From NCBI RefSeq assembly GCF_018224925.1, contig NZ_JAGTUF010000011.1, forward strand, positions 62,001-126,000: a DNA stretch of 64,000 bases. Reading direction: 5' to 3'. The notes under the pieces are model-generated. The model had not been told where the DNA came from and did not search any database. It was given only the letters and a program-made list of their open reading frames with translations. Source of the stretch: Magnetospirillum sulfuroxidans. Its GTDB lineage: Bacteria; Pseudomonadota; Alphaproteobacteria; Rhodospirillales; Magnetospirillaceae. The stretch's first letter is position 1. Each line of letters begins with the position of its first letter. The translations under genes were made by a program, and so were the position numbers. Below, in pieces: positions 41,201 to 61,961 of the stretch.

Positions 41201-41218
41201 ATTAGCGTTATTGCTAAT
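41201..41218. promoter_or_regulatory. Palindrome in an AT-rich patch before soxY
   Basis: ATTAGC-N6-GCTAAT sits about 103 nt before soxY and 110 nt before the divergent chemoreceptor. The surrounding 50 nt are much richer in A/T than the rest of the window. It is a plausible repressor site or promoter region. Confidence 0.45.
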
Positions 41219-41320
41219 GTAGTGTTTGCTTTTTTAACGCGGTTTCCGTTAGCTGTTTCCGGGCCGCACCAGAAGCATCCCGTCGTGAGGATGCCCCGGC
41301 CCAAAAACAGGGAGAGGAAA

Positions 41321-46331: not shown

Positions 46332-46350
46332 ACGGTTCCGCCGCCCCGGA

Positions 46351-46364
46351 TCAACAGCGGTTGA
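46351..46364. promoter_or_regulatory. TCAA-N6-TTGA operator, site 1 (radical SAM unit)
   Basis: TCAACAGCGGTTGA, a palindrome with 5-nt arms, ends 67 nt before the radical SAM start. It belongs to a set of four in this locus (46351, 49315, 49397, 61948), one before each transcription unit. Confidence 0.65.
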
Positions 46365-46431
46365 ACAAGGCGCGGACGCCGTTGCGCCAGCAGGGCCGAA
46401 GCCGGATTGTTAGCGGCATGAGCACAGCATC

Positions 46432-47961
46432 ATGACCACCATCTACCTGATCTCTCCCAGGGCCGAGCCGTTGGCCTATTTTGGCGCCGAAATCTACGCT
46501 CATTCCGGTTTTGCCGGGGCGCAGATGGTGGCCGATCTGACCATGCCGACGGTGGCCGCCCTGATCCCCGCCGATTTTCATATTCGCCTGTGCGACGAAC
46601 ATTTGACCCCGGTCGATCTGGACGCGCCGGCCGACATCGTCGCCCTGACCGGCAAGACATCGCAAGCCGGCCGCATGCTGGAGCTGGCCGACGCATTCCG
46701 CCGCCGGGGACGCATCGTCGTCATCGGCGGCCCCTATGCCTCGCTGTCGCCCGACAAGGTGCGTCCGCATTGCGACGTTTTGGTGCGCGGCGAGATCGAG
46801 GGAATTGCCGCCGCCTTGTTCGACGATCTCCGCGCCGGAACCTGGAAGGCCGAATATGTGGGCGAAGCGGCCGATCTGGCGTCCACGCCGATCCCGCGCT
46901 GGGATCTCTATCCCAATGACCGCGCCCTGATCGGCGCCGTGCAAACCTCTCGCGGGTGCCCGTTCGATTGCGAATTTTGCGACGTGCCGGCTTATGCCGG
47001 ACGACGGCAGCGCCACAAGGACCCCAGCCAGGTGGTGGCGGAATTGGACGTGCTGTATGGCCTGGGCTATCGCAGCGTCTTTCTTGCCGACGACAATTTC
47101 ACCGCCTCGCGCCGACGGGCCAAGGGCCTGTTGACCGCCATCGCCGCCTGGAACCGCACCCGCCCCGATGGCTCGATGACATTCGCCACCCAGATGTCCG
47201 TCGATGTGGCCAAGGATGATGAAATCCTGGGTTTGTGCGCCCAAGCGGGGCTGGCCGTGGCCTTCGTCGGACTGGAAACCCCCAGCGAAGAGAGCTTGCG
47301 CGAAACCGGCAAGCGCCAGAATTTGGACGGCGATCCGATCGAACGGATCAATCGTCTGCTGGAACACGGCATCATGGTGATCAGCGGCTTGATTGTCGGC
47401 TTCGATGCCGACGGGCCGGACATTTTCGACCGTCAGCGCCGCTTTGTCGACAGCGCGCCAATCCCCATTTTCAGCCTGGGCGCCTTGGTGGCCTCCAGCG
47501 GCAGCCCGCTCTATGACCGCATGGTCCAGAGCGGCCGGCTCTTGGCCGAACACCCCTATGGCACCGCCCAGCCATGGAGCTCGAACATCATTCCCCAGCA
47601 GATGAGCGGCGAAGCCCTGCTGGCGGGCTTGCGCCATTTGGGCAACCATATCTATTCCCCGCAAGCCTTTGGCGATCGGATGGTGGCCATGCTGGATCGG
47701 CTGGGGACAGCCTGTGTCGGCCCAGCCCCCGTGCCCAATGGCGAAAGCCTTGTGGCCAGCCGCAAGGCGCTGATGCGCCAGACCGCGGAGCTCATCAAGC
47801 ACCTGGCCTTGTCAGGACCTGCGGAAAAGGCCATGGTCACCCGGATCGGCCGCCATGCCCTGCGCCACCGCCCGCAATTCCTACCCTTGGTGCAAACCTG
47901 CCTGCGTTTTTATGCGCAGATCCGTCACGTTTACCGACTGACCGGCTTCGAACCGACATGA
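46432..47961 (+). CDS. B12-binding radical SAM enzyme (DUF4070 type)
   Basis: The 509-residue product has a cobalamin-binding domain (about 1-150; DIVALTGKTSQAGRMLELAD, VVIGGPYASLSPDKV). The radical SAM core follows, with the cluster motif SRGCPFDCEFCDV (CxxxCxxC, near 175-185) and DDNFTASRRRAK. The C-terminal domain (GLIVGFDADGPDIFDRQRRF, SLGALVASSGSPLYDRM) is of the DUF4070 type. Relatives methylate unactivated carbons, hopanoid methylases among them. Its stop overlaps the GNAT start, and the nearby peptide precursor and exporter suggest that it modifies that peptide. A lipid substrate is the main alternative. Confidence 0.88.
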   Translation: MTTIYLISPRAEPLAYFGAEIYAHSGFAGAQMVADLTMPTVAALIPADFHIRLCDEHLTPVDLDAPADIVALTGKTSQAGRMLELADAFRRRGRIVVIGGPYASLSPDKVRPHCDVLVRGEIEGIAAALFDDLRAGTWKAEYVGEAADLASTPIPRWDLYPNDRALIGAVQTSRGCPFDCEFCDVPAYAGRRQRHKDPSQVVAELDVLYGLGYRSVFLADDNFTASRRRAKGLLTAIAAWNRTRPDGSMTFATQMSVDVAKDDEILGLCAQAGLAVAFVGLETPSEESLRETGKRQNLDGDPIERINRLLEHGIMVISGLIVGFDADGPDIFDRQRRFVDSAPIPIFSLGALVASSGSPLYDRMVQSGRLLAEHPYGTAQPWSSNIIPQQMSGEALLAGLRHLGNHIYSPQAFGDRMVAMLDRLGTACVGPAPVPNGESLVASRKALMRQTAELIKHLALSGPAEKAMVTRIGRHALRHRPQFLPLVQTCLRFYAQIRHVYRLTGFEPT

Positions 47962-48851
47962 GCGTTCTAACCATCGCCCCGGTCACCGCCGCCGACGACC
48001 GCCTGAAGACGCTGACCTATCCCCGCTTCGCCGAATACCTGACCCCGGCGGCGCTGGCGGCGCCGTGGTTCCACGTCATCGCCGCCACGACGGCAACCCA
48101 GCCGGTCGGCATGGCCATGCTGATCCAGGACGCGGAAAGCAGTTGGCGGCTGATGTCGGTGGCGGTGTCAGCCCAAAGCCGGCGCAACGGCATCGGTTTG
48201 GCATTGATGCAGGCGGCGGCGCAGTGGGCCGCCACCCGCTCCCTCCCGACGCTGTACAGTGTCCATGGCGGCGAGATGCGCGGTGTGGACGCCTGGCAAG
48301 GGCTGCTGGACCGCGCCGGCTGGTCGCCGCCGGTTCTGTGCCTGCTGTCGCTGACCGGTCACGCCACCTGGGCCACCGAAGCACGCCGGGAATGGGATGA
48401 TCTGTTCGTCCGTCTTGCCGCTTCGGGCTTTACCGTCACCCCATGGTGTCAGCGTTCGGTCGAGGACGAGGCGATATTGGCGCACTTGGCCGTGGGCACC
48501 GGGCGCATGGCGCCGCAAGGGGTGACGGATGTCTTGCCCGGCGCCAGTCTGGTTATCCGCGAACACGGCCTACCGGTGGGGTGGGTCTTGGCGACCACCG
48601 GAACCCAGCCCGGCGACATCTATTACCCGGCGGGCTATGTGACCCGGCGGCTGCAACGCATGGGCTGGCTGGTCGCCGCCCTGGTCGAAGCCTGTCTCAG
48701 CCAGCAGCGAACCTATGGCGCGGACGGCACATGCAGCTTCCAGACGGCCGGCGACAACCGCGCCATGCAGGATTTCATGCTGCGCCGACTGGACAAATGG
48801 ACCATCCGCCGCAACACGCATTACCAAAGCAGCAAGACGATTTCACCGTGA
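47958..48851 (+). CDS. GNAT acetyltransferase-like protein coupled to the radical SAM enzyme
   Basis: The 297-residue product has an N-terminal GNAT domain with the acetyl-CoA motif AVSAQSRRNGIGLALMQAAA. A C-terminal half (SLVIREHGLPVGWVLATTGT, then TAGDNRAMQDFMLRRLDKW) looks like a second, degenerate GNAT fold. The start overlaps the radical SAM stop by 4 nt. The predicted core peptide has two lysines, possible acetyl acceptors, but this link is inferred. A perfect terminator follows. Confidence 0.78.
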   Translation: MSVLTIAPVTAADDRLKTLTYPRFAEYLTPAALAAPWFHVIAATTATQPVGMAMLIQDAESSWRLMSVAVSAQSRRNGIGLALMQAAAQWAATRSLPTLYSVHGGEMRGVDAWQGLLDRAGWSPPVLCLLSLTGHATWATEARREWDDLFVRLAASGFTVTPWCQRSVEDEAILAHLAVGTGRMAPQGVTDVLPGASLVIREHGLPVGWVLATTGTQPGDIYYPAGYVTRRLQRMGWLVAALVEACLSQQRTYGADGTCSFQTAGDNRAMQDFMLRRLDKWTIRRNTHYQSSKTISP

Positions 48852-48858
48852 AAAGCAC

Positions 48859-48887
48859 AAGCCCCGAACCGCAACGGTTCGGGGCTT
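48859..48887. terminator. Bidirectional terminator between GNAT and precursor genes
   Basis: AAGCCCCGAACCG (48859-48871) pairs perfectly with 48875-48887 around a 3-nt loop. It lies between the convergent GNAT and precursor stops and should end both transcripts. Confidence 0.85.
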
Positions 48888-48927
48888 GGCAATCATCTTG
48901 GCCAGGGCTTTGGCCGCCCGCGCGACC

Positions 48928-49251
48928 TCAGCCGCCCAGGTGCAACTTCGAAACTTTGGGCTGCGGCGTCATCATCACGCCGGCGGCAACCAGTTCCAGA
49001 TCATCGTCGGACAATTCATCGTCATTGGCGGCGGCAAACACGGCCGGCAAAACCAGGACGCAGCGCGTATCGGTTTCCTCGATCACGTCCAGGGTGATGC
49101 CTTCGGGCCAATCCTGGCCCAAGACCTCTTTCACCGCGCGGGCCGGATCGGTTTTCAGCAATTCCCGGAACGCCGGATTTTCCTGCGCCTTCAAAACCAA
49201 AGAGCGATAGGCCGCTTCACGCTGCTCCAGACGCTGCTCGAAACTCGACAT
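48928..49251 (-). CDS. RiPP precursor with nitrile-hydratase-like (NHLP) leader
   Basis: The 107-residue product has no signal peptide. Residues about 10-75 match the NHLP/TOMM leader that resembles nitrile hydratase alpha: QENPAFRELLKTDPARAVKE, then DWPEGITLDVIEETDTR and VLVLPAV. The end of the leader is ELSDDDLELVAAG, the double-glycine-type C39 cleavage site. This leaves a 16-residue core, VMMTPQPKVSKLHLGG, with two Lys, one Ser, one Thr, one His and no Cys. The start at 49251 (MSSFEQRLEQREAAYR) follows GGAAGGGGA; the frame above it is open but has no ribosome site. It is divergent from the exporter operon. The final GG might be a second processing point. Confidence 0.85.
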   Translation of the reverse strand: MSSFEQRLEQREAAYRSLVLKAQENPAFRELLKTDPARAVKEVLGQDWPEGITLDVIEETDTRCVLVLPAVFAAANDDELSDDDLELVAAGVMMTPQPKVSKLHLGG

Positions 49252-49314
49252 AATGTGTCCCCTTCCATAAATGTTCACAGCGACAAGACTAAACCGCCCC
49301 CCGCCCCAGCACCA

Positions 49315-49328
49315 TCAACGGTCATTGA
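49315..49328. promoter_or_regulatory. TCAA-N6-TTGA operator, site 2 (precursor unit)
   Basis: TCAACGGTCATTGA lies 63 nt before the precursor start (minus strand), at the edge of an AT-rich patch (49324-49375). It is a near copy of site 3, 82 bp away (one base differs in 14). Confidence 0.65.
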
Positions 49329-49396
49329 TATTTCTAAAATTATATAAACATTTCAGTGTTTTGCCTGAATTCTAAGGTCTATACCCGACCGCAACA

Positions 49397-49410
49397 TCAA
49401 CGGCCATTGA
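49397..49410. promoter_or_regulatory. TCAA-N6-TTGA operator, site 3 (exporter unit)
   Basis: TCAACGGCCATTGA ends 77 nt before the adaptor start. The extended direct repeat ATCAACGG(T/C)CATTGA at 49314 and 49396 is 82 bp apart, about eight helical turns, so both copies face the same side of the DNA. Confidence 0.65.
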
Positions 49411-49487
49411 GAAAGCCCGCGGTCGCGTTGACGTCTTGCCCGAACTGTGGCCCCTGTGACCCATCGCGGACATGGGGAAATGAAACG

Positions 49488-50753
49488 ATGGCGACGGCCG
49501 CAGAAAAACTGTTCCGCAAGGCGGCGCTGGACCGCATTTCCTCGCCGGAGCAATTGGACCGCGCGGTGACCGTGGCCGACGCCCGATCATGGATCGCCGC
49601 AACCGGGTTGGGGCTGGGGCTGGTATTCTTGCTGGTATGGGGCATCTTCGGCAGCATTCCCACCAACGTGCCGGCCAAGGGCATCTTGATTCCGCAGGAC
49701 GGACGGGTGGTGTCGGCCATGAGCCCGGCCGGCGGTGTGGTTGACCGCATCTTGGTATCGGTCGGCGACACCGTCGTCAAAGGGCAGGTGGTCGCCCGCA
49801 TCCGCCAAGATGAATCGCGTCAACGCTTGGGCCATGCCCGCCAGGTGATGTCGGAAAAATCGGACGACCAGCGGTCTCGCCGCACCGTATTGCAGCAGGA
49901 ATTGCAGGCGACGCTGACCACCATCGGCCAACGCCAGACCGCCTTGGAACAATCGGCGGCGGCGGCCCGCGACCGCATCCGTTATCTGGAACAGCAGGTG
50001 CGCAACCGCCAGGAAATGTTGGCCATGGGCTTTGCCACGGCGGAAACCATCCAAACGGCGCAAAACGAGTTAAGCCGCGCCCGGCGCGAATTGGCCGATT
50101 CCCATGCCCAAATCAGCGCCGCCAAGGCCGAGGCCATGCAAGCCCGCCTGAACACCGACCGCGAGATGCGCCAATTGGCGGAAAATGTCGCCAATGCCGG
50201 CCGCCGGGCCGAGGAATTGTCCACCGAAATCAGCCTGTCATCGGAGGTGCTGGCCCCCAGCGCCGGCCGCGTCAATGAAATCAGGCTGACCGAAGGCGTC
50301 GTCGTCGCCACCGGTCAGCCGGTACTGGGGATCGAAAGCGCCGGCAGCCGCTTGCAAGCCGTGGTCTACATTCCCACCGAGCACGGCAAAAAGGTGCATG
50401 CGGGCATGCTTGCCCGCGTCGCGCCCTCGACGGTGAAAAAGGAAGAATCGGGAACCCTGACCGGCGCGGTCGCCCAGGTCTCTCCGTTCCCCGCCACCCG
50501 CCAGGGCATCACCGCCGTGGTGCAAAACGAAACCCTGATCGAGGATTTCGTCAAAAAGGGCGCCCCCTACGAAGCCCGCATTGATCTGGTTCCCGCCGAT
50601 ACCCCCAGCGGCTATGGCTGGAGTTCCGGGCATGGCCCCGACATCGACCTGAGCAGCGGCACCACCGTCGACGTCTCCATCGCCGTGCGCGAGCAACGGC
50701 CCATTTCGCTGATCCTGCCTTTCCTGCGCCGGGCCGTTGGGGTCGATCGGTGA
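49488..50753 (+). CDS. NHLM-type bacteriocin secretion adaptor (HlyD family)
   Basis: The 421-residue product has one N-terminal membrane helix (GLGLGLVFLLVWGIFGSIPT), a biotinyl-lipoyl half (DGRVVSAMSPAGGVVDRILV), a long coiled coil (about 120-260) and a beta domain resuming at LSSEVLAPSAGRVNEIRLTE. It bridges the inner-membrane ABC exporters and the outer-membrane channel. It is the first gene of the export operon; the next gene overlaps its stop. Confidence 0.9.
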   Translation: MATAAEKLFRKAALDRISSPEQLDRAVTVADARSWIAATGLGLGLVFLLVWGIFGSIPTNVPAKGILIPQDGRVVSAMSPAGGVVDRILVSVGDTVVKGQVVARIRQDESRQRLGHARQVMSEKSDDQRSRRTVLQQELQATLTTIGQRQTALEQSAAAARDRIRYLEQQVRNRQEMLAMGFATAETIQTAQNELSRARRELADSHAQISAAKAEAMQARLNTDREMRQLAENVANAGRRAEELSTEISLSSEVLAPSAGRVNEIRLTEGVVVATGQPVLGIESAGSRLQAVVYIPTEHGKKVHAGMLARVAPSTVKKEESGTLTGAVAQVSPFPATRQGITAVVQNETLIEDFVKKGAPYEARIDLVPADTPSGYGWSSGHGPDIDLSSGTTVDVSIAVREQRPISLILPFLRRAVGVDR

Positions 50754-52906
50754 ACAGCCAACATCCAACCCCTCGCCGGGTGCGCACGCCGACGATCTTG
50801 CAGATGGACGCGCTGGAATGCGGCGCCGCCTGCCTGGCCATGATTTTGGCGTATCACGGCCGCTGGGAACCGCTTGAGGAATTGCGTCAAGCCTGCGGCG
50901 TCGGCCGCGACGGCAGCAAGGCGTCCAACGTCTTGAAGGTGGCCCGAGGCTTCGGTCTGGCAGCCAAGGGTTTCAAGAAGGAACCCAGCGGTTTGATGGA
51001 CCTGCCGGTACCGTCGATCATCCACTGGAACTTCAACCATTACGTTGTCTTCGAAGGCATCGACAAGGGCCGGGCTTATCTGAACGATCCCGCCCACGGG
51101 CCGCTATCGGTTCCGCTCGAGGAACTTTCGGCCGCCTTCACCGGCGTGGTGCTGGCCTTCACCACCACCGAAAACTTCCAAACCGGCGGCCATCCCCCCA
51201 ATGGTCTGCGCCAGTTGGGACAATACCTGCGCCATTCCCGCCGTCCACTGGCTTTGATCGCCGGGTTCAGCCTGTTGCTGGTCGTGCCCGGCGTGGTTAT
51301 CCCTGGCCTGGAAAAGCTGTTCGTCGATCAGGTTTTGGTGCAGCAATTCGAAAGCTGGGTGGCGCCGCTGTGCCTGGGGCTGGTGCTGTGCGCCGTGGTT
51401 CAGGCCGTGCTGACCGGCTTTCAGCAGCATTTATTGGCCCGCTTGGAAGCCAAGCTGTCGATCACCTTATCGGCGCGCTACCTGTCCAGCCTGCTGTCGC
51501 GTTCGCAGAACTATTTCAACCAGCGCCACAAGGGCGACTTGGCCAACCGCGCCGCCGCCGCCGACAACATCGCCGACCTGCTGTCCGGCCAATTGGCGAC
51601 CAATTTCTTCAACGTCGCCGCCGTGTTCTTCTACGCCCTGGCGATGACCGCCTATGACCCGGTTCTGGCCGCCATCGCCTTGGTGCTGGCGGCCGGCAAC
51701 GTTGCCATCTTGCGGCTGGTGCAACGGCGGCGCACCGACCTGCATCGCGAACTGGCCGGCGATCTTGGCCGATTGGCCGCCGCCACCGTCAGCACCATCA
51801 CCACCATCGAAACGCTGAAAGTATCCGGGGCCGAGGACCAGGCTTTCGCCGGCTGGAGCGGGTATCAGGCGCAATCCCTGGCGACCCAGCAACGCCTGGG
51901 CCTGATCGAGGCCTTGATGACCGGCGCCCCGGCCTTGCTGTCGGCATTATCGGCGGCGGCGATCCTGGGGGTGGGGGGCTGGCGTGTGATTGACGGCCAT
52001 TTGACCGTCGGCTCGTTGGTGGCCTTGCAGGCGCTGATGGCCAGCATCACCGCGCCGGTGGCCGCCCTGGTCACCCTGGCCGGTCGGCTGCAAGCGGCCA
52101 AGGGGGATCTGGAACGCCTGGCCGACGTGCTGGATCTGCCGCCGGCCGTGCCGGTGGCCGCGCCCGCCGCCCTGCCGGCCAAGCTGCAAGGCCACATCGA
52201 CCTGATCAATGTCAGCTTCGGCTACAATCCCTGCGAACCGCCCCTGGTCGAAGGCTTTTCACTGACCTTGCGTCCGGGAGCCCGTGTCGCCCTGGTCGGC
52301 ACCTCGGGCAGCGGCAAATCGACCATCGGCCGGATGGTCTGCGGACTTCAGGCGCCATGGTCGGGACAGATTTTGATCGACGGCCACCCGCTGGAAAGCA
52401 TTCCTCCCCACGTCTTCGCCGGATCGGTGGCCTATGTGGATCAAGACGTCTTCCTGTTCGAAGGCACCGCCCGCGACAACCTGACCCTGTGGGACCCCAC
52501 CATCCCCGAGACGGCGTTGACCCAGGCGTTGAAGGACGCGGAAATCCACGCCGAACTGGCCAGCCGTCCCGGCCAATACGACACCTTGATCGCCGAGGGC
52601 GGTGGCAATTTCTCGGGCGGGCAGCGCCAGCGGCTGGAAATCGCCCGCGCCCTGGTCTCTGACCCCAGCATCTTGGTGCTGGATGAAGCCACCGCCGCTT
52701 TGGACCCGGTCACCGAAAAGCGCATCGACGACAACATCAGGCGACGCGGCAGCACCTGCCTGATCATCGCCCATCGTCTGTCCACCATCCGCGATTGCGA
52801 CGAGATCGTCGTGCTGGATCGTGGTCAGGTGATCGAACGCGGCAGCCATGACCAATTGATGGCCGCCACCGGAACCTATGCCCAACTGATCAAGGCGGGC
52901 CGCTGA
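50750..52906 (+). CDS. C39 peptidase-containing ABC exporter (PCAT)
   Basis: The 718-residue product starts at a GTG overlapping the adaptor stop. The C39 domain (about 10-135) has the full active site: Gln18, Cys24 (LECGAACLAM), His97 (FNHYVVFEG) and Asp113 (LNDPAHG). Six membrane helices and an ATPase follow, with GTSGSGKST, FSGGQRQRLEIARAL, ILVLDEATAALD and IAHRLSTI. It should cut the leader after the double-Gly-type site and export the core. It overlaps the next gene by 1 nt. Confidence 0.95.
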   Translation: MNSQHPTPRRVRTPTILQMDALECGAACLAMILAYHGRWEPLEELRQACGVGRDGSKASNVLKVARGFGLAAKGFKKEPSGLMDLPVPSIIHWNFNHYVVFEGIDKGRAYLNDPAHGPLSVPLEELSAAFTGVVLAFTTTENFQTGGHPPNGLRQLGQYLRHSRRPLALIAGFSLLLVVPGVVIPGLEKLFVDQVLVQQFESWVAPLCLGLVLCAVVQAVLTGFQQHLLARLEAKLSITLSARYLSSLLSRSQNYFNQRHKGDLANRAAAADNIADLLSGQLATNFFNVAAVFFYALAMTAYDPVLAAIALVLAAGNVAILRLVQRRRTDLHRELAGDLGRLAAATVSTITTIETLKVSGAEDQAFAGWSGYQAQSLATQQRLGLIEALMTGAPALLSALSAAAILGVGGWRVIDGHLTVGSLVALQALMASITAPVAALVTLAGRLQAAKGDLERLADVLDLPPAVPVAAPAALPAKLQGHIDLINVSFGYNPCEPPLVEGFSLTLRPGARVALVGTSGSGKSTIGRMVCGLQAPWSGQILIDGHPLESIPPHVFAGSVAYVDQDVFLFEGTARDNLTLWDPTIPETALTQALKDAEIHAELASRPGQYDTLIAEGGGNFSGGQRQRLEIARALVSDPSILVLDEATAALDPVTEKRIDDNIRRRGSTCLIIAHRLSTIRDCDEIVVLDRGQVIERGSHDQLMAATGTYAQLIKAGR

Positions 52907-55800
52907 TGACCTTCCCTTCCCCCCCACAAGCCGCCGCCGGCATCCGCCCGGTTTCCGCCGATCAGCCCGTGACGCTATGGCGCGAGGCGGAGGGCTGGCG
53001 CGTCGTCACCGGTTTTCTCGACCTGTTCGCCGTCCCCCTGATCGATGGTGAAGCGGCCGGACGGCGCATGTTCCTGGCCCGTCTGGGCGTCGGTCACATC
53101 GTCTTGCCGCTGCCGGCGGCCGAGGATTGGGGCATCCTCGCCTGTGGCGGCCAAGACAGCGCCGTCGTCCCGATCACACCGGCGAAGCTGACCGCCGATG
53201 ATCTCAATCCCTGGATCGCCACCCTGTGCGAAGCCATGGCCGAGACCGAGTCAAGCCCCGCGCCAAGCGCCATGGACGGCACCCACGCATTGATGGCGGG
53301 GGAAGCCCTGGCCGGACGCGGCCGCCATCCGGTATGGGCGCGGCTCGTCAGCGGAAGCGCGGTGGCGGCCGACGGCCCCGAACCGTTCACCCCCCAGTCA
53401 GCGCCGCTGCCTTTGGCCGCCGGATTGCGGCTGACCGCCTGCGAACCGACGCAAATCGTCTTGGCCCGGACCCAGGATCTGATGGCCACGGGCGGTTTGG
53501 CCCAAGCCTTGCCGGCCTTCCATCATTTCGCCGTAGCCGCCGCCATCCGCGCCACCCGCCGTCGCCAAGGCGTCATGGCCGCCATGGTCGCCGACCGCAC
53601 CCGCCACTCGCAGCAGATGATGGAACGCGGCTATCAGACCCTGGCGCAAACCATCCAGCCGGACCGGCCGCTGGCGGCGGTGACCCGGACCGGCGACACC
53701 GTCCTGGCGGTTGTCCGCCGGGTCGCCGCCTTTCAGGGACATCCGGTCGTCACCCCGCCGCAAGCCGTTCCGCTGCCGGGGCCACACGGCCGCATCGGCG
53801 CCATTTTGCGCGCCTCGGGCCTGCGGCCCCGCGTAGTGATCCTGCGCGACGCCTGGTGGCGTCAAGACGGGATGCCGTTGATTGGGCGACGGCGCGAAAA
53901 CAGCGCCCCGGTGGCGCTGTTGCCCGGCCCTGGCGGATATCGCGCCTGGAACCCCGAGGATGGCAGCGAAATTCCGGTCACCGAGGAATTCGCCACCGCC
54001 TTGGAGGCGCAGGCCCTGACCGTCTATGGCCGCTTCCAGGTGGCAAGCTTGCCGCCGCGCGACATTGTCGCCTTGGCATTGCGCGGCACCCGCCCGGATA
54101 TCTTGCGCTTGCTGGCCTTGGCCTTGGGAACGGCCATGCTGGCGCTGCTCATTCCCATCGCCTCGTCCTTGCTGGTGGATGAAATCATCCCCGCCGCCGC
54201 CCGCGACCAATTGGGCATTCTGGTCAGCGGGTTGGTGGTGGCGGCGCTGACCGCCGCCTGCCTGGAACTGACCAAGGGCGTGGCGTTGCTGCGGCTGGAA
54301 GGACGGCTGGACGCCAATTTGCAATCCGCCATGTTCGACCGCCTGTTGCGCCTGCCGGCGGCTTTTTTCAAACGCTATTCCGCCGGCGATCTGACCGACC
54401 GCGTGCTCGGCGTCCAGGCCATTCGGCAAAAGCTGACCGGCGCGGCGGTGACCTCGTTGCTGGGGGGGATCTTTTCCACCGTCAGCCTGGCAATGCTGTT
54501 TTATTACTCGCGCCCGCTGGCGGTCTTGGCGGTGGCCTTGGCGCTGGGGTCGGCGCTGGCGACCTTGGCGCTGATCTGGCTGCAATTGCGGCACGAACGG
54601 CGCTTGGCCCTGGTGCGCGGCGCGGTCGAGGGCCTGATCTTGCAATTGATCATCGGCGTCGGCAAGCTGACCGTGGCCGCCGCGCGCGAACGCGCCATCG
54701 CCCATTGGGCCGAAAAATTCGCCCGCCAAAAGCGCCATGCCTTGGCGGCGCAGGCGGCGGCCCGGATGCAAGCGGTGTTCATGGCGGCTTTTCCGCCCTT
54801 GGCCAATGTCGCCGTCTTCCTGGCCATCGCTTACGTGGCCAAGGAAGCGGCGACGGAAACCCAGTTGAAGGCGCTGGTCGGCGGCGAGGCAACCGCCGCC
54901 ATGGGCACCGGCCAGTTCCTGGCCTTCAACGCCGCCCTGGCTCAGTTCCTGGCCAGCATGACCCAATCGGTCCGCAGTCTCAGCGACGTGCTGGGCTCGG
55001 TTCCGTTGTGGGAACGGGCCAAGCCGGTCCTTGCCGCCACCCCCGAAGATTGCGGCGAACGCCATTCCCCCGGAATGCTGGATGGCGGCGTCGAGTTCAG
55101 CGGCATCGGCTTTTCCTATGTCAGCGGCGGCCCCAGCGTTCTCAAGGGCTTTTCCGCCACCATCCGCGCCGGCGAGTTCGTCGCCCTGGTCGGACCGTCG
55201 GGCAGCGGCAAATCCACCGTCATGCGCCTGTTGCTGGGCTTGGAGCAGGCCACCGAAGGTGAAATCTTCTTCGACGGCAAGCCGTTGTCACGCCTGCATC
55301 TCAGCCATTTGCGGGCTCAGATCGGCGTGGTGCTGCAAAATAGCCGGGTGCTGCCCGGCGACGTCTTTCACAATATCATCGGCGACAGCGAATGCCGGCT
55401 GGAAGACGCTTGGGAAGCCGCCGCCATGGTCGGGCTGGACGGCGACATCCGCGCCATGCCCATGGGCATGCACACCGTGCTGATGGAAGGCGGCGGCACC
55501 TTGTCGGGCGGGCAGCGCCAACGTCTGGCCATCGCCCGCGCCCTGGTGCGCAAGCCGCGCATCTTGTTGCTGGACGAAGCCACCAGCGCCTTGGACAACC
55601 GGACCCAGGCGGTGGTGACCCAATCGCTGGCCCGGCTGGGCATCACCCGCATTCTGATCGCTCACCGTCTCAGCACCATCACCGATGTCGACCGCATCTT
55701 GGTGATGGATCAGGGCCGGCTGGCTCAATCGGGCCAGTATCAAGACCTGGTCGCCGCCCCCGGCCTGTTCGCCGACATGGCGCGCCGCCAAATCCTTTGA
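52906..55800 (+). CDS. NHLM-type second ABC exporter subunit
   Basis: The 964-residue product has about 390 N-terminal residues without C39 residues, a mixed domain seen in the second NHLM transporter. Membrane helices at about 400-700 (SLLVDEIIPAAARDQLGILV) and a complete ATPase follow: GPSGSGKST, LSGGQRQRLAIARAL, ILLLDEATSALD and IAHRLSTI. It probably forms a heterodimer with the C39 exporter upstream. The ribosome site is within the previous gene. Confidence 0.92.
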   Translation: MTFPSPPQAAAGIRPVSADQPVTLWREAEGWRVVTGFLDLFAVPLIDGEAAGRRMFLARLGVGHIVLPLPAAEDWGILACGGQDSAVVPITPAKLTADDLNPWIATLCEAMAETESSPAPSAMDGTHALMAGEALAGRGRHPVWARLVSGSAVAADGPEPFTPQSAPLPLAAGLRLTACEPTQIVLARTQDLMATGGLAQALPAFHHFAVAAAIRATRRRQGVMAAMVADRTRHSQQMMERGYQTLAQTIQPDRPLAAVTRTGDTVLAVVRRVAAFQGHPVVTPPQAVPLPGPHGRIGAILRASGLRPRVVILRDAWWRQDGMPLIGRRRENSAPVALLPGPGGYRAWNPEDGSEIPVTEEFATALEAQALTVYGRFQVASLPPRDIVALALRGTRPDILRLLALALGTAMLALLIPIASSLLVDEIIPAAARDQLGILVSGLVVAALTAACLELTKGVALLRLEGRLDANLQSAMFDRLLRLPAAFFKRYSAGDLTDRVLGVQAIRQKLTGAAVTSLLGGIFSTVSLAMLFYYSRPLAVLAVALALGSALATLALIWLQLRHERRLALVRGAVEGLILQLIIGVGKLTVAAARERAIAHWAEKFARQKRHALAAQAAARMQAVFMAAFPPLANVAVFLAIAYVAKEAATETQLKALVGGEATAAMGTGQFLAFNAALAQFLASMTQSVRSLSDVLGSVPLWERAKPVLAATPEDCGERHSPGMLDGGVEFSGIGFSYVSGGPSVLKGFSATIRAGEFVALVGPSGSGKSTVMRLLLGLEQATEGEIFFDGKPLSRLHLSHLRAQIGVVLQNSRVLPGDVFHNIIGDSECRLEDAWEAAAMVGLDGDIRAMPMGMHTVLMEGGGTLSGGQRQRLAIARALVRKPRILLLDEATSALDNRTQAVVTQSLARLGITRILIAHRLSTITDVDRILVMDQGRLAQSGQYQDLVAAPGLFADMARRQIL

Positions 55801-55819
55801 CCACAACACAGGGACGATC

Positions 55820-56365
55820 ATGCGCAAGGTTCTTTATATCCTCGGCCAGTTGGATGACATGGATGTGGATTGGCTGGCCCGCCAAGGCCGCAAGCGGCAA
55901 ATCCCCGCCGGTGAAGTCCTGGTGCGCGAGGGAATGCCCTGTTCTTCGGTCTTCATCTTGCTTGAAGGCGGCGTCGAGGTGACCATCCAGGGCCTTGGCT
56001 GCGTCGCCAACCTGGCTTCGGGCGAGATGATCGGCGAATTGTCCTTCGTCGACAGCGCCCCGCCTTCGGCCACCGTCACCGCCCAGACCGCCTGTGTGGT
56101 TCTGGACGTGGACAAGACGTTGTTGGCGGCGCAATTGGCCCGTGACGACGGTTTTGCCCGCCGCTTTTATCAGGCCATCGCCATGTTCCTGGCCGATCGC
56201 TTGCGCGGCACCGTGCGGCGCATGGGCTATGGCGCCGGGGCCAGCTTGGACAGCGCCGACGTCCTGACCGACGAACTGGATGAGAAATTGCTGGATGCGG
56301 TATCGCTGGCCGGCGACCGTTTCGACCGTCTGGTCCGCACCCTGGCGACGGCGCGCGCCCATTGA
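55820..56365 (+). CDS. Cyclic-nucleotide-binding-type protein without a DNA-binding domain
   Basis: The 181-residue product has a CRP-like cNMP-binding barrel (about 15-125): REGMPCSSVFILLEGGVEVT, GEMIGELSFVDSAPPSATVT. A helical tail (RFYQAIAMFLADRLRGTVRR) follows and ends without a helix-turn-helix. It cannot be a usual CRP/FNR regulator. Lying inside the operon, it may gate the exporter or sense a ligand. The family's phosphate-binding Arg is not clearly present in the PSAT segment, so nucleotide binding is uncertain. Confidence 0.85.
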   Translation: MRKVLYILGQLDDMDVDWLARQGRKRQIPAGEVLVREGMPCSSVFILLEGGVEVTIQGLGCVANLASGEMIGELSFVDSAPPSATVTAQTACVVLDVDKTLLAAQLARDDGFARRFYQAIAMFLADRLRGTVRRMGYGAGASLDSADVLTDELDEKLLDAVSLAGDRFDRLVRTLATARAH

Positions 56366-59300
56366 TGACGGCGCCGCCGCGCGTTCCCACCATCTTGCAG
56401 TTCCAGGCGGCGGAATGCGCTTTGGCGGCGTTGGCCATGGTGATGGCCCATCATGGTTGCGCCGTGCCGCTGGATGAAGTGCGCCAGCGCGCGGGCGTAT
56501 CGAGCGACGGCACGTCACTGGCCGTCCTTAAGGCGGTGGCGGCTTCCTATGGCTTCGCCACCCGCGCCTTCCGCAAGGAACCCGAGGCCGTGGCCGCCCT
56601 TGGTTTTCCCTGCCTGGCCTTCGTCAGTTTCAATCACATGCTGGTCATCGAGGCGATGACGCCCACGGCCTTGATCGTCGTTGACCCGGTCGGCGGCCGG
56701 CAGCGGCTCAGTGCCGCCGAATTCGAGCGCATCTTCACCGGCATCGTCATCCGACTTGAGCCGACCGCCGCCATGGCGCCGCGACGCCGGGTGAAGCGGC
56801 GGAGCGTGCCGGCGCTGATCCGGCAAAATTGGGGCTGGGCCGGACTGGTCTTGATCCTGGCCATGATCATGGGCGGCGCCGAGACAATCTTGGCCTTGGC
56901 CTTGGAGACAGGGGACGTCGTCACGCCCCTGCTGGCGGCGGCGGCGCTCCGTCTTGGCCTGCATGGCGCCCTGGAAGGGTGGGCCAAAGGCCTGCGCCAG
57001 GGGACGGCGGCTCTGGTCGACCGGTTGCTGCCAAGCCGGGCCGCGTCTTATTTCGGCTTGCGCAATCCATCCATGCTGGCAAGCACGGCGCACGTCCCCC
57101 GGCATCTGAGCGAAGTGATCCAAGGCGGCCCGGCCGCCGCCAGCGCCGGCTTGGTGGCGGCACTGCCGCCGCTGGCTCTGTTGGCCTTCATGGCCCCACC
57201 AACCGCCGCCGCCGCCGCCGCCGCCTGGGCAATCTGCGCCGTGGCCACCGCGCATACTTTCCTGGCGGCGGGATCGCCGTGGCGGCGCATGCGCCAGCAC
57301 GGCGGTCCTTTGCCCCTGGGCTATCATTTTCTGACCCCCGAGCCCTGGCAAATGTCCGGCCGCGAAGACGAGGCATTATCCGAGGCGGTGGCCGCCGACA
57401 CCCGCGCCATATCCCCCTCCGGCGATTTCGCCATCGCCGATTCCCGGCTGCGCGCGATCATCGCCGCCGCCATCGCCGCCACCGCCGCAATCGCCATGGC
57501 GACAGCGCCGGGACTAACCCCGGCGGTTCTGGCCGTGCTGGCCTGCTGGCCCTGGCTGCATGTCCCCAAAGCCATGCCGGCCCTGTTTTCCCTGCGGGAT
57601 CTGGCCGCCATGCTGGATGATCTGACCGGTGCTCCCGCCGTGCCGCCGTCGCCCGCCGCCGCCGCGCCGGGAATCGCCCTGGCCGGACGTGGATTGGCCT
57701 TTGCCCATGGCCCCGTCCTATTATTCCGCGACCTCGAGTGCGCGATCGCCGTCGGCGCCCGGATCGGCCTGACCGGACCGGCCGGGGCCGGAAAAACCAC
57801 CCTGGCCCGCGTGCTGGCCGGACAGATGGCCCCACGGGCCGGCAATGTCGCCAGCAGCGGCGCCGTCACCCTGGTCGCGGCCGCACCGGCCCTGTTCGCG
57901 GCCAGTATCGCCGACAACGTCGCGTGTTGGCGGCCCGGAATGGACCAACAGCGGATCGAAGCCGCGCTCCGCGCCGCCGAACTGTGGGACGAAATCAGCG
58001 GCCGTGCCGACGGTATCGCCACCCACGTCGCCGAGGACGCGGCCAATCTCAGCGGCGGTCAGCGCCGTCGGTTGATGCTGGCCCGCGCCCTGGCCGGCGC
58101 TCCCTCCGTGGTAATCCTGGACGAATGCTTGGATGCCGTCGATGTCGCCACCGAGGCGCGTATCCTGCAAAACCTGCGTGATCTGGGGATGACGGTTCTC
58201 TTGATCTCGCAGCGCCGCGAAAGCCTGAGCGCCTGCGACGCCGTCTGGCGGTTGAGCGAAGGGGTATGGCGGCCCTGGCATGATGGCGCCGACGCCCACG
58301 CCGCCATCCCGGCGACACCCGGCGCGGGCGCGGCCCCGCCGCCAGATCCTCCGCCGCCAGCTCCCCCTGACGCCGCCACCTGGGCCGCCCTGGTCACCGC
58401 CGCCGCCCTGCTGGGCCAGGATTTGCCCGCTTGTTGCCCCCCGGTTTCATCCCCCCCTGGCGTGCGTCCGCTGGATTGGCTGGCGCGACAGCATGGCTTG
58501 TTGCTGTTTCCGGTCAGCCTGCATGACCATGGCTGGCACCGTCGCGGTGACGGCGTCATCCTGGCGCGGCAGCCCGACAAGGGACCGGTTGTGCTGGCCC
58601 CCAGCGGATTGGGCGGCTATCGCCAGCGCACGCCGCAAGGACGCTGGCGCCGCCTGACCAATGCAGGTGCCGCCACCTTGGCCACCGACGCTTTGTTGGT
58701 GCTGCGCCGCCCCGACAACGTCACCGGGGCGGCCCTGGCATGGTCGTCCTGGCAGATCGCCGCCGCCACTTTGGTATTGTGGCTTGGGGTGCTGGCGCTG
58801 GTCTGCGGCGGCACGGCGATTGCCGCTGTCGCCGCCGTGGGAATCGGCATGGGGGCTTTGACCCTGGCCCGTCACCGTCTGCGCGACCGATTGCGCCTGA
58901 TCGGCACCGTCGCCGCCGCCGGTCATGCCCTGCGGCTGTCGCCCTGGTGGAGCCGAAGCCTGCCGAGCGGGCGGCTGGAACGGTGGTGCGAGGATTTCCG
59001 CACCCGATCCGGCCGACGCGATACCGCCTTGGCCGAGGCGGCCGCCCTGACACTCGTCGTCACCGGCATGATCTTGTTGTTGCCCCGGCCGGAATGGACC
59101 GCGGCGATGGCCGCCACCGCCGCCGCCACCGTGTTGATCCTGGGGCGTCTGGGTGACCGCCGGCAGCGGCAGGCCCGGAAATCCAAGGGGGCGGCCAATG
59201 TTTTTCTCTCCCCGCTGCTGGAGCTGCTGCCCTGGTGCCCGGGCAGCCAGAGCGCCGCCGCCGCCTATGGCCAGTGGCGGCGACGGGAAGACGACAGCGA

Positions 59301-60405
59301 ACGCGACGACCGCCGCCTTCGCCTAATCGTGACCCTGCGCCGCTGCTGGCTGCTCTTGTCCCCCCTGGCCGGGCTGGCAATCGCCGCTTCCGCCCCCCCC
59401 TCCGTCATCCTCTCTTGCGCCCTCTCCATGGTTATTGGCAATGGCCTGGGGATGGCCCTGGACAGTCTGATCGGGCTGCGCCGACGACGGTTCAAGGACA
59501 TCTTGGCGGCCCCGCGCGAATGCGGCGGCGCGCGGCCCAGCCGGCCGCCACATGCCCTGACGGCGGATGCCGTGTCTTTCGGCTATGACCGTCCGCTGCT
59601 GCGGCATCTTTCCCTGGCGATCAAACCAGGGGAGATCGTCGCCATCGCTGGACCGTCAGGCTGTGGCAAATCAACCTTGATGCGGTTGCTGATGGGATTC
59701 GAGCCGCCCCAAAGCGGCCGGGTCCTGATGGACGGCATCGACATGGCCACCGCCGACCGGCTGGAATGGCGGGCCCATGCCGCCGCCGTGTTTCAAGATG
59801 AGAGGCTGGATTTCAGCCCCTTGCATGCCCAGGTTCGGGGATCGGCCCCGCTTGGGCTGGATCAGGTGGCGGCCCGGCTGATCCAAATCGGGCTGTGGCC
59901 CAAGGTGGCGGCGCTGCCCATGGGGCTGGCGACACTGGTGGATTGCCGCTTTCTTTCGGGCGGGCAGGCTGCGCAATTGATGCTGGCCCGCGCCTTGTCC
60001 CGCCAGCCCTCGCTGCTCTTCCTCGACGAAACCCTGGCGGCCATGGACCCGGCGGCACGGGCGCAGGCCCTGGCCGCCATCCGCGCCAGCGGCGCCACCT
60101 GCGTGCTGACCAGCCACCAAAGCGACGTTCTGGCCGCGGCCGATCGAGTCTTGTGGTTGGAAGACGGGGCGGTGCGCGCGGAAACGGGGACGCCGCCTCC
60201 CCCTTTGGCGTCACATGCCCCGCTGGCCGTCATTCCCGCCGATCCACCCTCGGCCTTCGGCTCGGCAACCCGGTTATATCGGCCCGCCGCCCTGGCCCGG
60301 ATCGAAGGTCCCGACCGTCGCGACGTCCTGCCGTCCCCCCCGCCTTCCCCGCTTTTGCCCTTGTGCGCGGCGCTGATCGCGGTGGTTTTGGCCTGGCTGC
60401 CGTGA
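56365..60405 (+). CDS. Giant fusion: C39 peptidase-ABC exporter joined to a second ABC exporter
   Basis: The 1346-residue product repeats, in one chain, the plan of the two exporter genes upstream. C39 domain: Gln12, Cys18 (AAECALAALAM), His91 (FNHMLVIEA) and Asp107 (VVDPVGG), all present. First membrane domain: about 145-430. First ATPase: GPAGAGKTT near 471, LSGGQRRRLMLARAL near 561, VVILDECLDAVD; the switch His is replaced by Gln in LISQRRESL. A Pro/Ala linker lies near 645-670, then the mixed domain and second membrane region. Second ATPase: GPSGCGKST near 1095, LSGGQAAQLMLARAL near 1197, LLFLDETLAAMD and an intact His in LTSHQSD. Its ATG shares a base with the previous stop. Ala-rich, weakly hydrophobic membrane parts suggest drift. 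Confidence 0.88.
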   Translation: MTAPPRVPTILQFQAAECALAALAMVMAHHGCAVPLDEVRQRAGVSSDGTSLAVLKAVAASYGFATRAFRKEPEAVAALGFPCLAFVSFNHMLVIEAMTPTALIVVDPVGGRQRLSAAEFERIFTGIVIRLEPTAAMAPRRRVKRRSVPALIRQNWGWAGLVLILAMIMGGAETILALALETGDVVTPLLAAAALRLGLHGALEGWAKGLRQGTAALVDRLLPSRAASYFGLRNPSMLASTAHVPRHLSEVIQGGPAAASAGLVAALPPLALLAFMAPPTAAAAAAAWAICAVATAHTFLAAGSPWRRMRQHGGPLPLGYHFLTPEPWQMSGREDEALSEAVAADTRAISPSGDFAIADSRLRAIIAAAIAATAAIAMATAPGLTPAVLAVLACWPWLHVPKAMPALFSLRDLAAMLDDLTGAPAVPPSPAAAAPGIALAGRGLAFAHGPVLLFRDLECAIAVGARIGLTGPAGAGKTTLARVLAGQMAPRAGNVASSGAVTLVAAAPALFAASIADNVACWRPGMDQQRIEAALRAAELWDEISGRADGIATHVAEDAANLSGGQRRRLMLARALAGAPSVVILDECLDAVDVATEARILQNLRDLGMTVLLISQRRESLSACDAVWRLSEGVWRPWHDGADAHAAIPATPGAGAAPPPDPPPPAPPDAATWAALVTAAALLGQDLPACCPPVSSPPGVRPLDWLARQHGLLLFPVSLHDHGWHRRGDGVILARQPDKGPVVLAPSGLGGYRQRTPQGRWRRLTNAGAATLATDALLVLRRPDNVTGAALAWSSWQIAAATLVLWLGVLALVCGGTAIAAVAAVGIGMGALTLARHRLRDRLRLIGTVAAAGHALRLSPWWSRSLPSGRLERWCEDFRTRSGRRDTALAEAAALTLVVTGMILLLPRPEWTAAMAATAAATVLILGRLGDRRQRQARKSKGAANVFLSPLLELLPWCPGSQSAAAAYGQWRRREDDSERDDRRLRLIVTLRRCWLLLSPLAGLAIAASAPPSVILSCALSMVIGNGLGMALDSLIGLRRRRFKDILAAPRECGGARPSRPPHALTADAVSFGYDRPLLRHLSLAIKPGEIVAIAGPSGCGKSTLMRLLMGFEPPQSGRVLMDGIDMATADRLEWRAHAAAVFQDERLDFSPLHAQVRGSAPLGLDQVAARLIQIGLWPKVAALPMGLATLVDCRFLSGGQAAQLMLARALSRQPSLLFLDETLAAMDPAARAQALAAIRASGATCVLTSHQSDVLAAADRVLWLEDGAVRAETGTPPPPLASHAPLAVIPADPPSAFGSATRLYRPAALARIEGPDRRDVLPSPPPSPLLPLCAALIAVVLAWLP

Positions 60406-60410
60406 ACCGA

Positions 60411-60460
60411 TCACCGGGATATGGTGTAAGACCGGGATGCCCCTTGAAGGCATCACGGTC
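60411..60460. terminator. Hairpin between the convergent exporter and TolC genes
   Basis: GACCGGGATGCC (60430-60441) pairs with 60449-60460 with one mismatch. The preceding 15 nt, TCACCGGGATATGGT (60411-60425), are identical to 42198-42212. It should end transcription from both sides. Confidence 0.65.
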
Positions 60461-61869
60461 TAATGCGCCGGCCCCGCCTCACCGGCGGAAACCTCATCGC
60501 CCCAGCCGATCCAATTCCCCCGCACATTTTCGTAATGCACGGCAGGGTCATAGCGGACGACGGCCAGGTTCAGCGATTCGGCGGTCATCCGGCCCAAAGC
60601 GGCCAGGCTGCGATAAGACGCCGCCATCTGGTCCCGACGGGCGCCAATCAGATTGATCTGCGCCTCGAACAATTCCTGCTCGGCATTCAAGACGTCCAGC
60701 AAAGTCCGGTTTCCCAGGCGCATCTGCTCGGCGGCGACACCGTCCCGAGCGATCTGGTTGGCGCGCACCGATGCGTCATAACTGTCCACCTGGGGCTGGG
60801 CCGCCGCCAGCGAATTCCATGCCTCCTGGGCTTGTTGGCGGGCGGCGCGGCGCGCCGCTTCCAATTGCTGGCGGCGCTGCCCCAATTCCTGTTTGCGCGC
60901 CTGAACCCGCGCATATTCGGCCCCCGACTGATAAAGCGGGACCCGAACCACCACGCCGGCGCGCTGGACCCGCTGGTCCGAAACTCCGACCGTGCTGTTG
61001 GTTTCGTAGCTGTCGGAAGCCTCCATCGTGACGATGGGCAGCACTTCGGCCTCGCTGCTGTCGATGGCGGCGCGCGCGGCCTCGACCGCGAAGCTGGCGC
61101 CACGCACGCGGGGATTGGCCATTTCCGCCTCGGCCAGCACGGCATCGCGATTGCCCGGCAGGTCCGGCAAGATCTCGGGGAAGCTCAGACTGGCCGGCGC
61201 TTCGCCGACCACGGCGACATAACGGCCACGGGCGGTGTCCAGCCCGGCCTCGGCCCGGCGCAAAGCCGCACGGACATTGGCGAGACGAGCCCGCGCCTGG
61301 GCCACGTCGGTCATGGTGGCCATTTGACGGGCGAAACCGGCCTCGGCGGCGTCAAGCTGACGGTTCAACACCAAGACGTTGGCGCGGGTGAGTTCCTGCA
61401 CCCGTTCCGCCCACACCACGCCCAAATAAGCCTCGGCCGTTTCCAGCAGAACACTCTGTTCCACATTGGCCAGATTGGCCCGCCCGGCCAGGACCCGCGC
61501 CTCGGCGGCGCGTACCGCCCCGGCGGTCCGGCCGAAATCGGCGATGCGCTGACTGAGCGTCACCCCCGCTTGGCGCTGCGGCAAGATGGCGGTGCTGCGG
61601 GTGTCACTGGAATCATGCGCTTTGACGTAGCTGCGCGATCGCCCCAACGTGACCGACACTGTCGGCCGCCACGCCGACAAGGCTTCGGTGACCCCATGAT
61701 CGGAAACCGCAAGGGCCGAGCGCTCGGCCTTGAGCGTCGGATTGTTCCAGTAGCTGAGCGCCAACGCGTCCTCAAGCGACTGAGCGGCGGCCGGAGCCGA
61801 ACCAAAGGCGAGCAGAACAACGCACCCCCACACCCCAACGCGGCGGAAATCCCCCATAAGCACCATCAT
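60460..61869 (-). CDS. TolC-family outer membrane efflux protein
   Basis: The 469-residue product has a signal peptide (VWGCVVLLAFGSAPAAAQ) and the TolC/OEP repeats: LEDALALSYWNNPTLKAERS, LLETAEAYLGVVWAERVQEL and the second-half block MRLGNRTLLDVLNAEQELFE. It forms the exit channel for the HlyD/ABC system encoded convergently. The shared TCAA-N6-TTGA site 78 nt upstream supports that link. Confidence 0.93.
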   Translation of the reverse strand: MMVLMGDFRRVGVWGCVVLLAFGSAPAAAQSLEDALALSYWNNPTLKAERSALAVSDHGVTEALSAWRPTVSVTLGRSRSYVKAHDSSDTRSTAILPQRQAGVTLSQRIADFGRTAGAVRAAEARVLAGRANLANVEQSVLLETAEAYLGVVWAERVQELTRANVLVLNRQLDAAEAGFARQMATMTDVAQARARLANVRAALRRAEAGLDTARGRYVAVVGEAPASLSFPEILPDLPGNRDAVLAEAEMANPRVRGASFAVEAARAAIDSSEAEVLPIVTMEASDSYETNSTVGVSDQRVQRAGVVVRVPLYQSGAEYARVQARKQELGQRRQQLEAARRAARQQAQEAWNSLAAAQPQVDSYDASVRANQIARDGVAAEQMRLGNRTLLDVLNAEQELFEAQINLIGARRDQMAASYRSLAALGRMTAESLNLAVVRYDPAVHYENVRGNWIGWGDEVSAGEAGPAH

Positions 61870-61947
61870 CCCAAGCAGCCCAATGGCGGCACGATACTGC
61901 CGCCCCCAGGTCCGACCAAGACAATCCCCCCTTGCGGCAAAGCTTCA

Positions 61948-61961
61948 TCAATCGTCGTTGA
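61948..61961. promoter_or_regulatory. TCAA-N6-TTGA operator, site 4 (tolC unit)
   Basis: TCAATCGTCGTTGA, inside the longer inverted repeat TTCATCAA-N6-TTGATGAA (61944-61965), ends 78 nt before the TolC start on the minus strand. The distance nearly equals that of site 3 to the adaptor gene (77 nt). The longer repeat could also serve as a terminator for the pbpC gene. Confidence 0.6.

Follow-up and report, generated by a model that had tools for sequence, protein, structure and literature searches.

A conserved outward-facing palindrome as probable shared operator of an NHLP RiPP regulon in Magnetospirillum sulfuroxidans and related genomes

The boxes bound by FNR, FixK and DNR have the form TTGAY-N4-RTCAA, and the operator of the 434 repressor reads ACAA-N6-TTGT. 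Both bear comparison with a palindrome, TCAA-N6-TTGA (TCAANNNNNNTTGA), that recurs upstream of the genes of a RiPP locus in M. sulfuroxidans. The likeness to the FNR/FixK/DNR box extends to the letters of the arms, the 14-bp length, the spacing and the position upstream of promoters; the arms, however, are turned outwards (TCAAY-N4-RTTGA), and the TCAA arm, which is also part of the search pattern, comes first in all 20 sites considered here. The first-pass annotation of this DNA was therefore right to set the two apart. With the 434 operator the palindrome shares a length of 14 bp and six weakly specified bases enclosed by arms of 4 bp, but it differs in the first base of the arm, and its inner pair is constrained to Y/R. 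A third likeness is to GTTGA, named as an operator element of MexR (MarR family) at mexA in the accessible part of the source (PMC10609311); that element serves other genes in another class of bacteria.

In gene content the closest described systems are the phaeornamide-type proteusin/selidamide loci, in which an alphaproteobacterium encodes a GNAT enzyme alongside an NHLP precursor and dedicated transporters (PMC9505594). The present locus shares all three and differs in having a B12-binding radical SAM protein. No operator for phaeornamide-type loci is described in the accessible part of that review. At the level of titles and abstract openings, a literature search returned no description of a TCAA-N6-TTGA operator and no account of the control of such NHLP clusters; a search combining MexR, GTTGA and inverted repeat also returned nothing.

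The window, by which we mean the whole 64,000-base stretch analysed, contains the locus as four transcription units, with limits inferred from gene order. The first encodes the B12-binding radical SAM protein (radSAM; 509 aa, 46432..47961, +; profile match) and, overlapping its stop, a GNAT acyltransferase-like protein of 297 aa (47958..48851, +; PF00583, 1.8e-10). A GNAT beside the precursor is the arrangement of selidamide loci (GNAT-acylated RiPPs), and a product with fatty-acylated Lys/Orn is a prediction. The second is the 107-aa NHLP-leader precursor itself (48928..49251, -; TIGR03793, 54.5 bits, cut-off 50.9). The third is an export operon comprising an NHLM HlyD-type adaptor (49488..50753, +; TIGR03794, 297.2 bits, cut-off 156.2), ABC transporter 1 with a peptidase domain (50750..52906, +; TIGR03796, 973.4 bits, cut-off 853.3), ABC transporter 2 (52906..55800, +; TIGR03797, 793.2 bits, cut-off 709.4), a cyclic-nucleotide-binding-domain protein (55820..56365, +; TIGR03896, 158.3 bits, slightly below the cut-off of 161.05) and a fused transporter of 1347 aa with two ABC units (56362..60405, +; profile search). 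The cyclic-nucleotide-binding-domain protein matched PF00027 only, with no DNA-binding domain by Pfam. The fourth is a TolC-type outer-membrane channel (60460..61857, -). Leader, adaptor and both transporters thus exceed their curated cut-offs, as in other NHLM/TIGR03793-03797 export loci. Throughout, the names response regulator (RR), MarR, TetR, LysR, AraC, Crp and GNAT (in the window and in GNAT2, below) rest on Pfam, other gene names in relatives on tblastn or the look of the sequence, and gene calls beyond the named loci on a crude gene-calling script.

Exactly four matches to the palindrome occur in the window. The first, TCAACAGCGGTTGA (46351..46364, +), lies 67 nt upstream of the radSAM ATG at 46432; the second, TCAATGACCGTTGA (49315..49328, read on the - strand), lies 63 nt before the precursor ATG (49251, -); the third, TCAACGGCCATTGA (49397..49410, +), lies 77 nt upstream of the HlyD ATG at 49488. 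The fourth, TCAACGACGATTGA (61948..61961, read on the - strand), is nested in a perfect palindrome with 8-bp arms, TTCATCAA-N6-TTGATGAA, and stands 78 nt from a tolC ATG at 61869, or 90 nt from the alternative ATG at 61857, which is kept in the ortholog of a congener (G026) and favoured by alignment with it. In 100 dinucleotide shuffles of the window the motif occurred 0.56 times on average and at most three times; none contained four. The first-pass annotation had reported the same four sites with no further exact match, fewer than one expected by chance in 64 kb, and distances of 67, 63, 77 and 78 nt, all of which our counts bear out, save that the last becomes 90 nt with the shorter tolC. 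With one mismatch permitted, nine matches were found against 14.5 expected.

Across the 4.13 Mb of the source genome (G000) there are 41 exact copies, close to the approximately 36 expected by chance (the window shuffle mean of 0.56 x 64.6). Of these, 36 have no link to NHLP genes, 28 of them lying within genes predicted by the crude caller. The bare 8-base motif is not specific, and the argument rests on clustering, position and conservation. The remaining copy, a fifth site, is located on another contig (C11) between an orphan second NHLP precursor (NHLP2) and a GNAT gene (GNAT2; PF00583, 1.9e-5), so that both NHLP leader matches in the genome have a site. By chance, a 150-bp promoter would hold a site with a probability of 0.0007-0.0015. 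The first-pass annotation had named many copies unrelated to promoters as evidence against its reading, and had proposed a genome-wide motif search for further members and for the regulator. Such copies exist, taken literally, for the bare motif (the 36 others), but not once the motif is refined and its conservation and place before promoters are taken into account; the search yielded a further member, the NHLP2/GNAT2 site, but not the regulator.

The refinement concerns the bases next to the arms. All 20 sites fit TCAAY-N4-RTTGA, a set for which exact arms were the search criterion and which includes sites from two genomes of another family (G191 and G192) picked with a preference for TCAAC-type interiors. 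The Y/R pair at positions 5 and 10 was absent from the search pattern; in the source genome and the congener it is present in 9/9 NHLP-linked sites against 15/48 other exact copies (p 1.5e-4), a test that leaves out G191 and G192 on account of the TCAAC-type preference with which their sites were fetched. Eight of the 12 non-NHLP sites of the congener were retrieved.

In the congener, whose HlyD is 84% identical, a site precedes all four orthologous units, and these account for four of its 16 exact genomic copies. Between the two genomes the arm bases of the sites are identical at 32/32 positions, the interiors at 16/24 and the flanks at 40-54%. In G191 and G192, sites precede radSAM, HlyD, GNAT and NHLP genes spread across several contigs: exact copies stand before 2/2 radSAM genes, 2/2 HlyD genes, 5/9 NHLP leader matches and two GNAT genes, the G192 positions being among the matches listed and the start codons being uncertain for two GNAT and two NHLP genes. 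The other four of the nine leader matches have only degenerate copies: two orthologous NHLP genes share an aligned one-mismatch copy, at distances of 235 and 263 nt from their start codons, and a tandem NHLP pair has one two-mismatch copy. That the four window sites cluster by chance, or descend from a single promoter that was duplicated recently, would agree with the chance-level frequency of the bare motif across the genome; yet the interior and flanking bases vary among sites and the positions recur before orthologs in both a congener and a different family, and we regard either origin as extremely improbable.

The site accompanies radSAM wherever the latter was found. Among 317 genomes of the order, an ortholog (E<=1e-80) is present in four, a search that recovered just the four genomes already known and so adds neither a new case nor an exception; in all four the site lies 56-67 nt upstream (67 nt in the congener, 62 nt in G191 and 56 nt in G192). 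As a point against the operator reading, of 12 genomes in the order that encode a close NHLM adaptor, eight lack this radSAM and show no exact site near HlyD. The TolC protein (E<=1e-100) was found in 2/55 genomes of the family, both with the site and with differing upstream neighbours; the other family has a TolC-like gene (27% identical) with no site in the 600 nt before it. The earlier claim that tolC belongs to the system thus gains support within the genus but not beyond it, and the comparison supports a regulon that would include tolC in this genus only.

Capable of pairing, and extended to 8 bp in the tolC copy, the arms could in principle form an RNA hairpin in 5' leaders. Of nine leaders folded, two were somewhat more stable than shuffles (z -2.2 and -1.8) and seven ranged from -1.0 to +1.1, so that no consistent signal emerges over the full range of -2.2 to +1.1; moreover, the hairpin is absent from several minimum-energy structures, including that of the leader at z -2.2, and one site sits between two divergent genes at the orphan NHLP precursor/GNAT locus. 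The arms are invariant in the 20 sites, for which exact arms were the search criterion, and offer no compensatory change. We consider an RNA element highly improbable.

A common motif stands before all units of the locus and is kept before their orthologs. Because the cluster in the window exceeds chance and the positions recur before orthologs, the sites are, with high confidence from sequence comparison, putative operators for one dimeric transcription factor that would coordinate the NHLP RiPP regulon. The proposal of a single regulator in the first-pass annotation gains support from conservation of the sites ahead of orthologs in three further genomes and from the site at the orphan precursor. 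Each TCAAY-N4-RTTGA element would be a DNA operator read by a protein, presumably a dimer; through it a single factor would coordinate the precursors, their maturation enzymes (GNAT and B12 radical SAM), the NHLM export operon and, within the genus, a TolC that belongs to the system. In the HlyD promoters of 4/4 genomes a -35-like TTGAC lies exactly 17 nt past the downstream arm; the radSAM promoters of the source genome and the congener have TTGCG in its place, and TTGAC at that spacing was seen neither in the radSAM promoters of G191 and G192 nor in NHLP and tolC promoters. An operator centred near -60 occupies the class-I activator position, as for CRP. Given the TTGAC 17 nt past the arm, the operator centre would sit near -60, and we infer, more weakly, activation over repression. 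A sigma-70 scan of 46250-49600 gave a single match, away from the sites.

The gene for this regulator probably lies outside the locus, and its product would act in trans; among the genes inspected near the sites, none for a regulator is linked to them in all genomes. The first-pass annotation held that it lies outside the window, which is unproven: a MarR-family gene (33433-33792, -) is among the 20/41 non-locus window genes scanned with Pfam, with no tie to the sites. Two classes of protein are compatible with the operator reading. An OmpR/PhoB-type RR with a hybrid histidine kinase (HK), autoregulated in some species, is suggested by an HK-RR pair directly upstream of the radSAM operon of the congener, where the radSAM site falls just past the RR stop; by an exact Y/R-type site in G050, 58 nt before a likely start of a gene that is followed by a 66% identical RR; and by an exact site in G191, 281 nt upstream of another OmpR-type RR, whose G192 ortholog has an aligned one-mismatch copy. 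However, the RR also occurs in G021, G025 and G050, all without an NHLP leader match; the HK-RR genes of G000, G021 and G025 have no exact site in the 15-kb regions that surround them; and the RRs of G026/G050 and of G191 show no clear orthology, that of G000 (C11:77348) being 77% identical to the RR of G026 and 43% to the RR of G191. OmpR-type proteins usually bind direct repeats, which counts further against this class, and we think it unlikely.

A dimer of another family (XRE of the 434/Cro-like type, MarR, TetR, LysR, NarL or Crp type) has, in our judgement, a somewhat better than even chance. Arms of 4-5 bp with a short spacer suit several of these families, and the 434 and mexA elements introduced above point the same way. 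Candidates include the window MarR gene, LysR genes near NHLP clusters in both G191 and G192, a TetR gene 226 nt after one site outside the NHLP loci of the source genome (C55:80511), and a Crp/Fnr gene facing an NHLP pair in G192. Against them, no MarR, TetR, LysR or Crp candidate is seen to recur beside the sites across families, the window MarR gene has no exact site nearby, and no XRE gene was found beside NHLP-linked sites.

Whichever family supplies it, we think it likely that the scattered NHLP regulon answers to one undescribed master regulator, with orphan pairs of precursor and GNAT genes at a distance from the exporter tied in only through the conserved operator, which would track the B12-radical-SAM branch across families. 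If so, hidden precursors would be found by operator mining, which would also point the way to the regulator and to the signal it answers. The conserved operator offers a means of tracing the regulator, the signal that induces the system and any precursors encoded at remote loci, and it already links the orphan precursor of the source genome to the window locus.

Several other candidates were set aside. The recognition helix of the Crp/Fnr protein by the degenerate G192 site is, we presume, FNR-like, and the protein is unlikely to bind these arms. Five other genomes have an AraC gene, identified with Pfam in one of them, that is transcribed divergently from HlyD; it has no homolog in the loci retrieved from the four site-bearing genomes. 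The window chemoreceptor (39073-41526) equals the congener's histidine kinase in length, which we take as coincidence and not orthology. The spacing misfits the IHF consensus, and the even centre and absent T-N11-A do not fit a LysR box. The 14-mer TCAACGGCCGTTGA, with at most two mismatches, occurs at 17 places in the source genome and at 10 in the congener (control, 14 and 5). Two further palindromes of the source genome were judged to be chance occurrences: one at G000:C12:13170, at the 3' end of a MerR-like gene, and that at C55:80511, which follows a chemoreceptor-like gene and precedes the TetR gene.

A scan of the window for the palindrome TCAA-N6-TTGA gives exactly four exact matches, at 46351, 49315, 49397 and 61948, which lie 67, 63, 77 and 78 nt before the ATG of the radical SAM (radSAM), NHLP precursor, HlyD adaptor and tolC genes, respectively, and so reproduces the first-pass annotation in sites, distances and number; with ATG 61857, the tolC start conserved in the congener G026, the last distance becomes 90 nt. 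The chance expectation, put in that annotation at fewer than one, is 0.56 by computation, and none of 100 shuffles reached four. The four sites are real. With one mismatch permitted the window holds 9 matches, fewer than the 14.5 expected, and thus the exact form alone stands out.

Profiles assign the NHLP RiPP locus (precursor, TIGR03793; adaptor, TIGR03794; transporters, TIGR03796 and TIGR03797), which also encodes a cyclic-nucleotide-binding protein, a fused double ABC protein, a B12 radical SAM protein, a GNAT protein and TolC; the third transporter (56362-60405; 1347 aa) contains two ABC-transporter units. GNAT-containing NHLP loci are known, from passages of PMC9505594, as selidamide pathways, and the chemistry type of the locus is therefore probably already known. 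The titles, abstracts and passages returned by a literature search contained no description of a TCAA-N6-TTGA operator.

The genome (4.13 Mb) contains 41 exact copies, about the chance number. Context was fetched for all 37 outside the window, with genes called crudely. The genome-wide search, proposed earlier as a route to further members, added one NHLP-linked site; the other 36 copies are unlinked, and 28 of these fall within genes as crudely predicted. The fifth linked site (CAACATCAACGGACATTGATA; C11:161898) is on a contig other than the window's; a second, orphan NHLP precursor has its ATG 113 nt away on one side, and on the other a GNAT gene starts divergently at 80 nt, the two spanning L112:4450-5907. 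Both NHLP leaders of the genome, which has exactly two, thus carry the site. Such leaders are present in 5 of 55 family genomes; for three of these (G011, G012 and G032) the fetched loci hold no exact copy nearby. The orphan precursor is 54.5% identical to one of a tandem NHLP pair (L310) in G192, a genome of another family.

In G026, where HlyD, TolC and radSAM are 84%, 82% and 73-74% identical to their counterparts, four of 16 exact copies precede HlyD, NHLP, radSAM and tolC, at distances (M. sulfuroxidans/G026) of 77/76, 63/62, 67/67 and 90/93 nt. Alignment of the four promoter pairs shows the arms identical at 32 of 32 positions, the interior at 16 of 24 and the flanks at 40-54%. The upstream neighbour of tolC differs, and its orientation facing the fused ABC gene is retained; TolC of this type (E<=1e-100) occurs in these two alone among the 55 family genomes. 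The divergent NHLP and HlyD sites are spaced 82 bp in the window (49315 and 49397) and 61 bp in G026 (L138:4259 and 4320); the difference, 21 bp, is two helical turns, and helical phase is therefore kept. A further exact site of G026 (C331:13088; L204:2089), outside any NHLP locus, stands 30 nt before a predicted gene that is XRE-type by look only.

The association extends to G191 and G192, two genomes of another family in the order, where sites are spread over several contigs. Exact sites precede radSAM (61% and 63% identical) at 62 and 56 nt, HlyD at 89 and 113 nt, and two GNAT genes with uncertain starts. They also accompany 5 of 9 NHLP leader hits, at 79, 79 and 99 nt and at two more whose starts are uncertain. 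Two orthologous leaders have in common an aligned one-mismatch copy, 235 nt before one and 263 nt before the other, and the tandem pair has a two-mismatch copy; both are weak. The TolC-like gene has no site in the 600 nt that precede it. Exact sites at matching positions (L236:3051 and L246:2358) stand between two genes that, by look only, encode a large surface protein and a methyltransferase and are possible further regulon members. A CRP-like TGTGA-N6-TCKCA lies two bases past the operator in all five exact-site NHLP promoters of G191 and G192 (L232:3702; two in L233; L243; L245:2351) and is not present in the window, L138, L112 or the four radSAM/HlyD loci tested; its recurrence may reflect shared ancestry of paralogs.

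Twenty NHLP-linked sites, those of G191 and G192 partly chosen for a TCAAC look, give the consensus TCAAY-N4-RTTGA, with Y/R at positions 5 and 10 in 20/20; the nearest perfect palindrome is TCAACGGCCGTTGA. In M. sulfuroxidans and G026 the Y/R pair occurs in 9/9 NHLP-linked sites versus 15/48 other exact copies (p = 1.5e-4).

Among 317 genomes of the order, window-type radSAM (E<=1e-80) occurs in four, each time preceded by the site; all four were known beforehand, so that the search could yield exceptions only, and it yielded none. HlyD homologs (E<=1e-85) occur in 12, with an exact site nearby in the four radSAM-bearing genomes and none close to HlyD within the fetched loci of the remaining eight; in G133 an exact copy, lacking the Y/R pair, lies ~300 nt away. 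The stretches examined around distant radSAM relatives in Rhizobium (46%) and Mangrovicella (43%) hold no exact copy. In five other genomes of the order (L207, L210, L211, L212 and L213) a gene of one family, AraC-type by Pfam in L211, is divergent from the NHLM HlyD, which is a different regulatory arrangement.

The earlier proposal that one common regulator would read the sites is well supported by these comparisons, and the reading reaches beyond the window. An invariant palindrome able to serve divergent genes would most simply be read by a dimeric DNA-binding protein. In the HlyD promoters of 4/4 genomes TTGAC begins 17 nt past the downstream arm, as does TTGCG in the radSAM promoters of M. 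sulfuroxidans and G026; this arrangement is not shown by the NHLP and tolC promoters or the radSAM promoters of G191 and G192. If TTGAC serves as the -35 element, the operator centre would fall near -60, a position that would tentatively favour an activator.

The regulator itself was not found. There are hints of OmpR-type response regulators: one is adjacent in G026, one in G050 has a site upstream, and so has one in G191, whose site is partly retained in G192. Against this, relatives in which no NHLP leader was hit also encode the G026-type protein, and no exact site lies near its gene in M. sulfuroxidans, G021 or G025. Pfam found no DNA-binding domain in the cyclic-nucleotide-binding protein of the locus. 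Pfam, run on 20 of the 41 genes predicted in the window beyond the locus, gave a MarR-family regulator (33433-33792, minus strand), adjoining an M17 aminopeptidase gene, as the sole transcription factor among those 20 proteins. A TetR gene lies near a site in M. sulfuroxidans. The NHLP neighbourhoods of G191 and G192 include a LysR-family gene (L232:819-1997 and L233:12439-13359) near a gene resembling a class V aminotransferase, and in G192 (C8) a Crp/Fnr-family gene (L310:95-811) is divergent from the NHLP pair, with a two-mismatch site in between.
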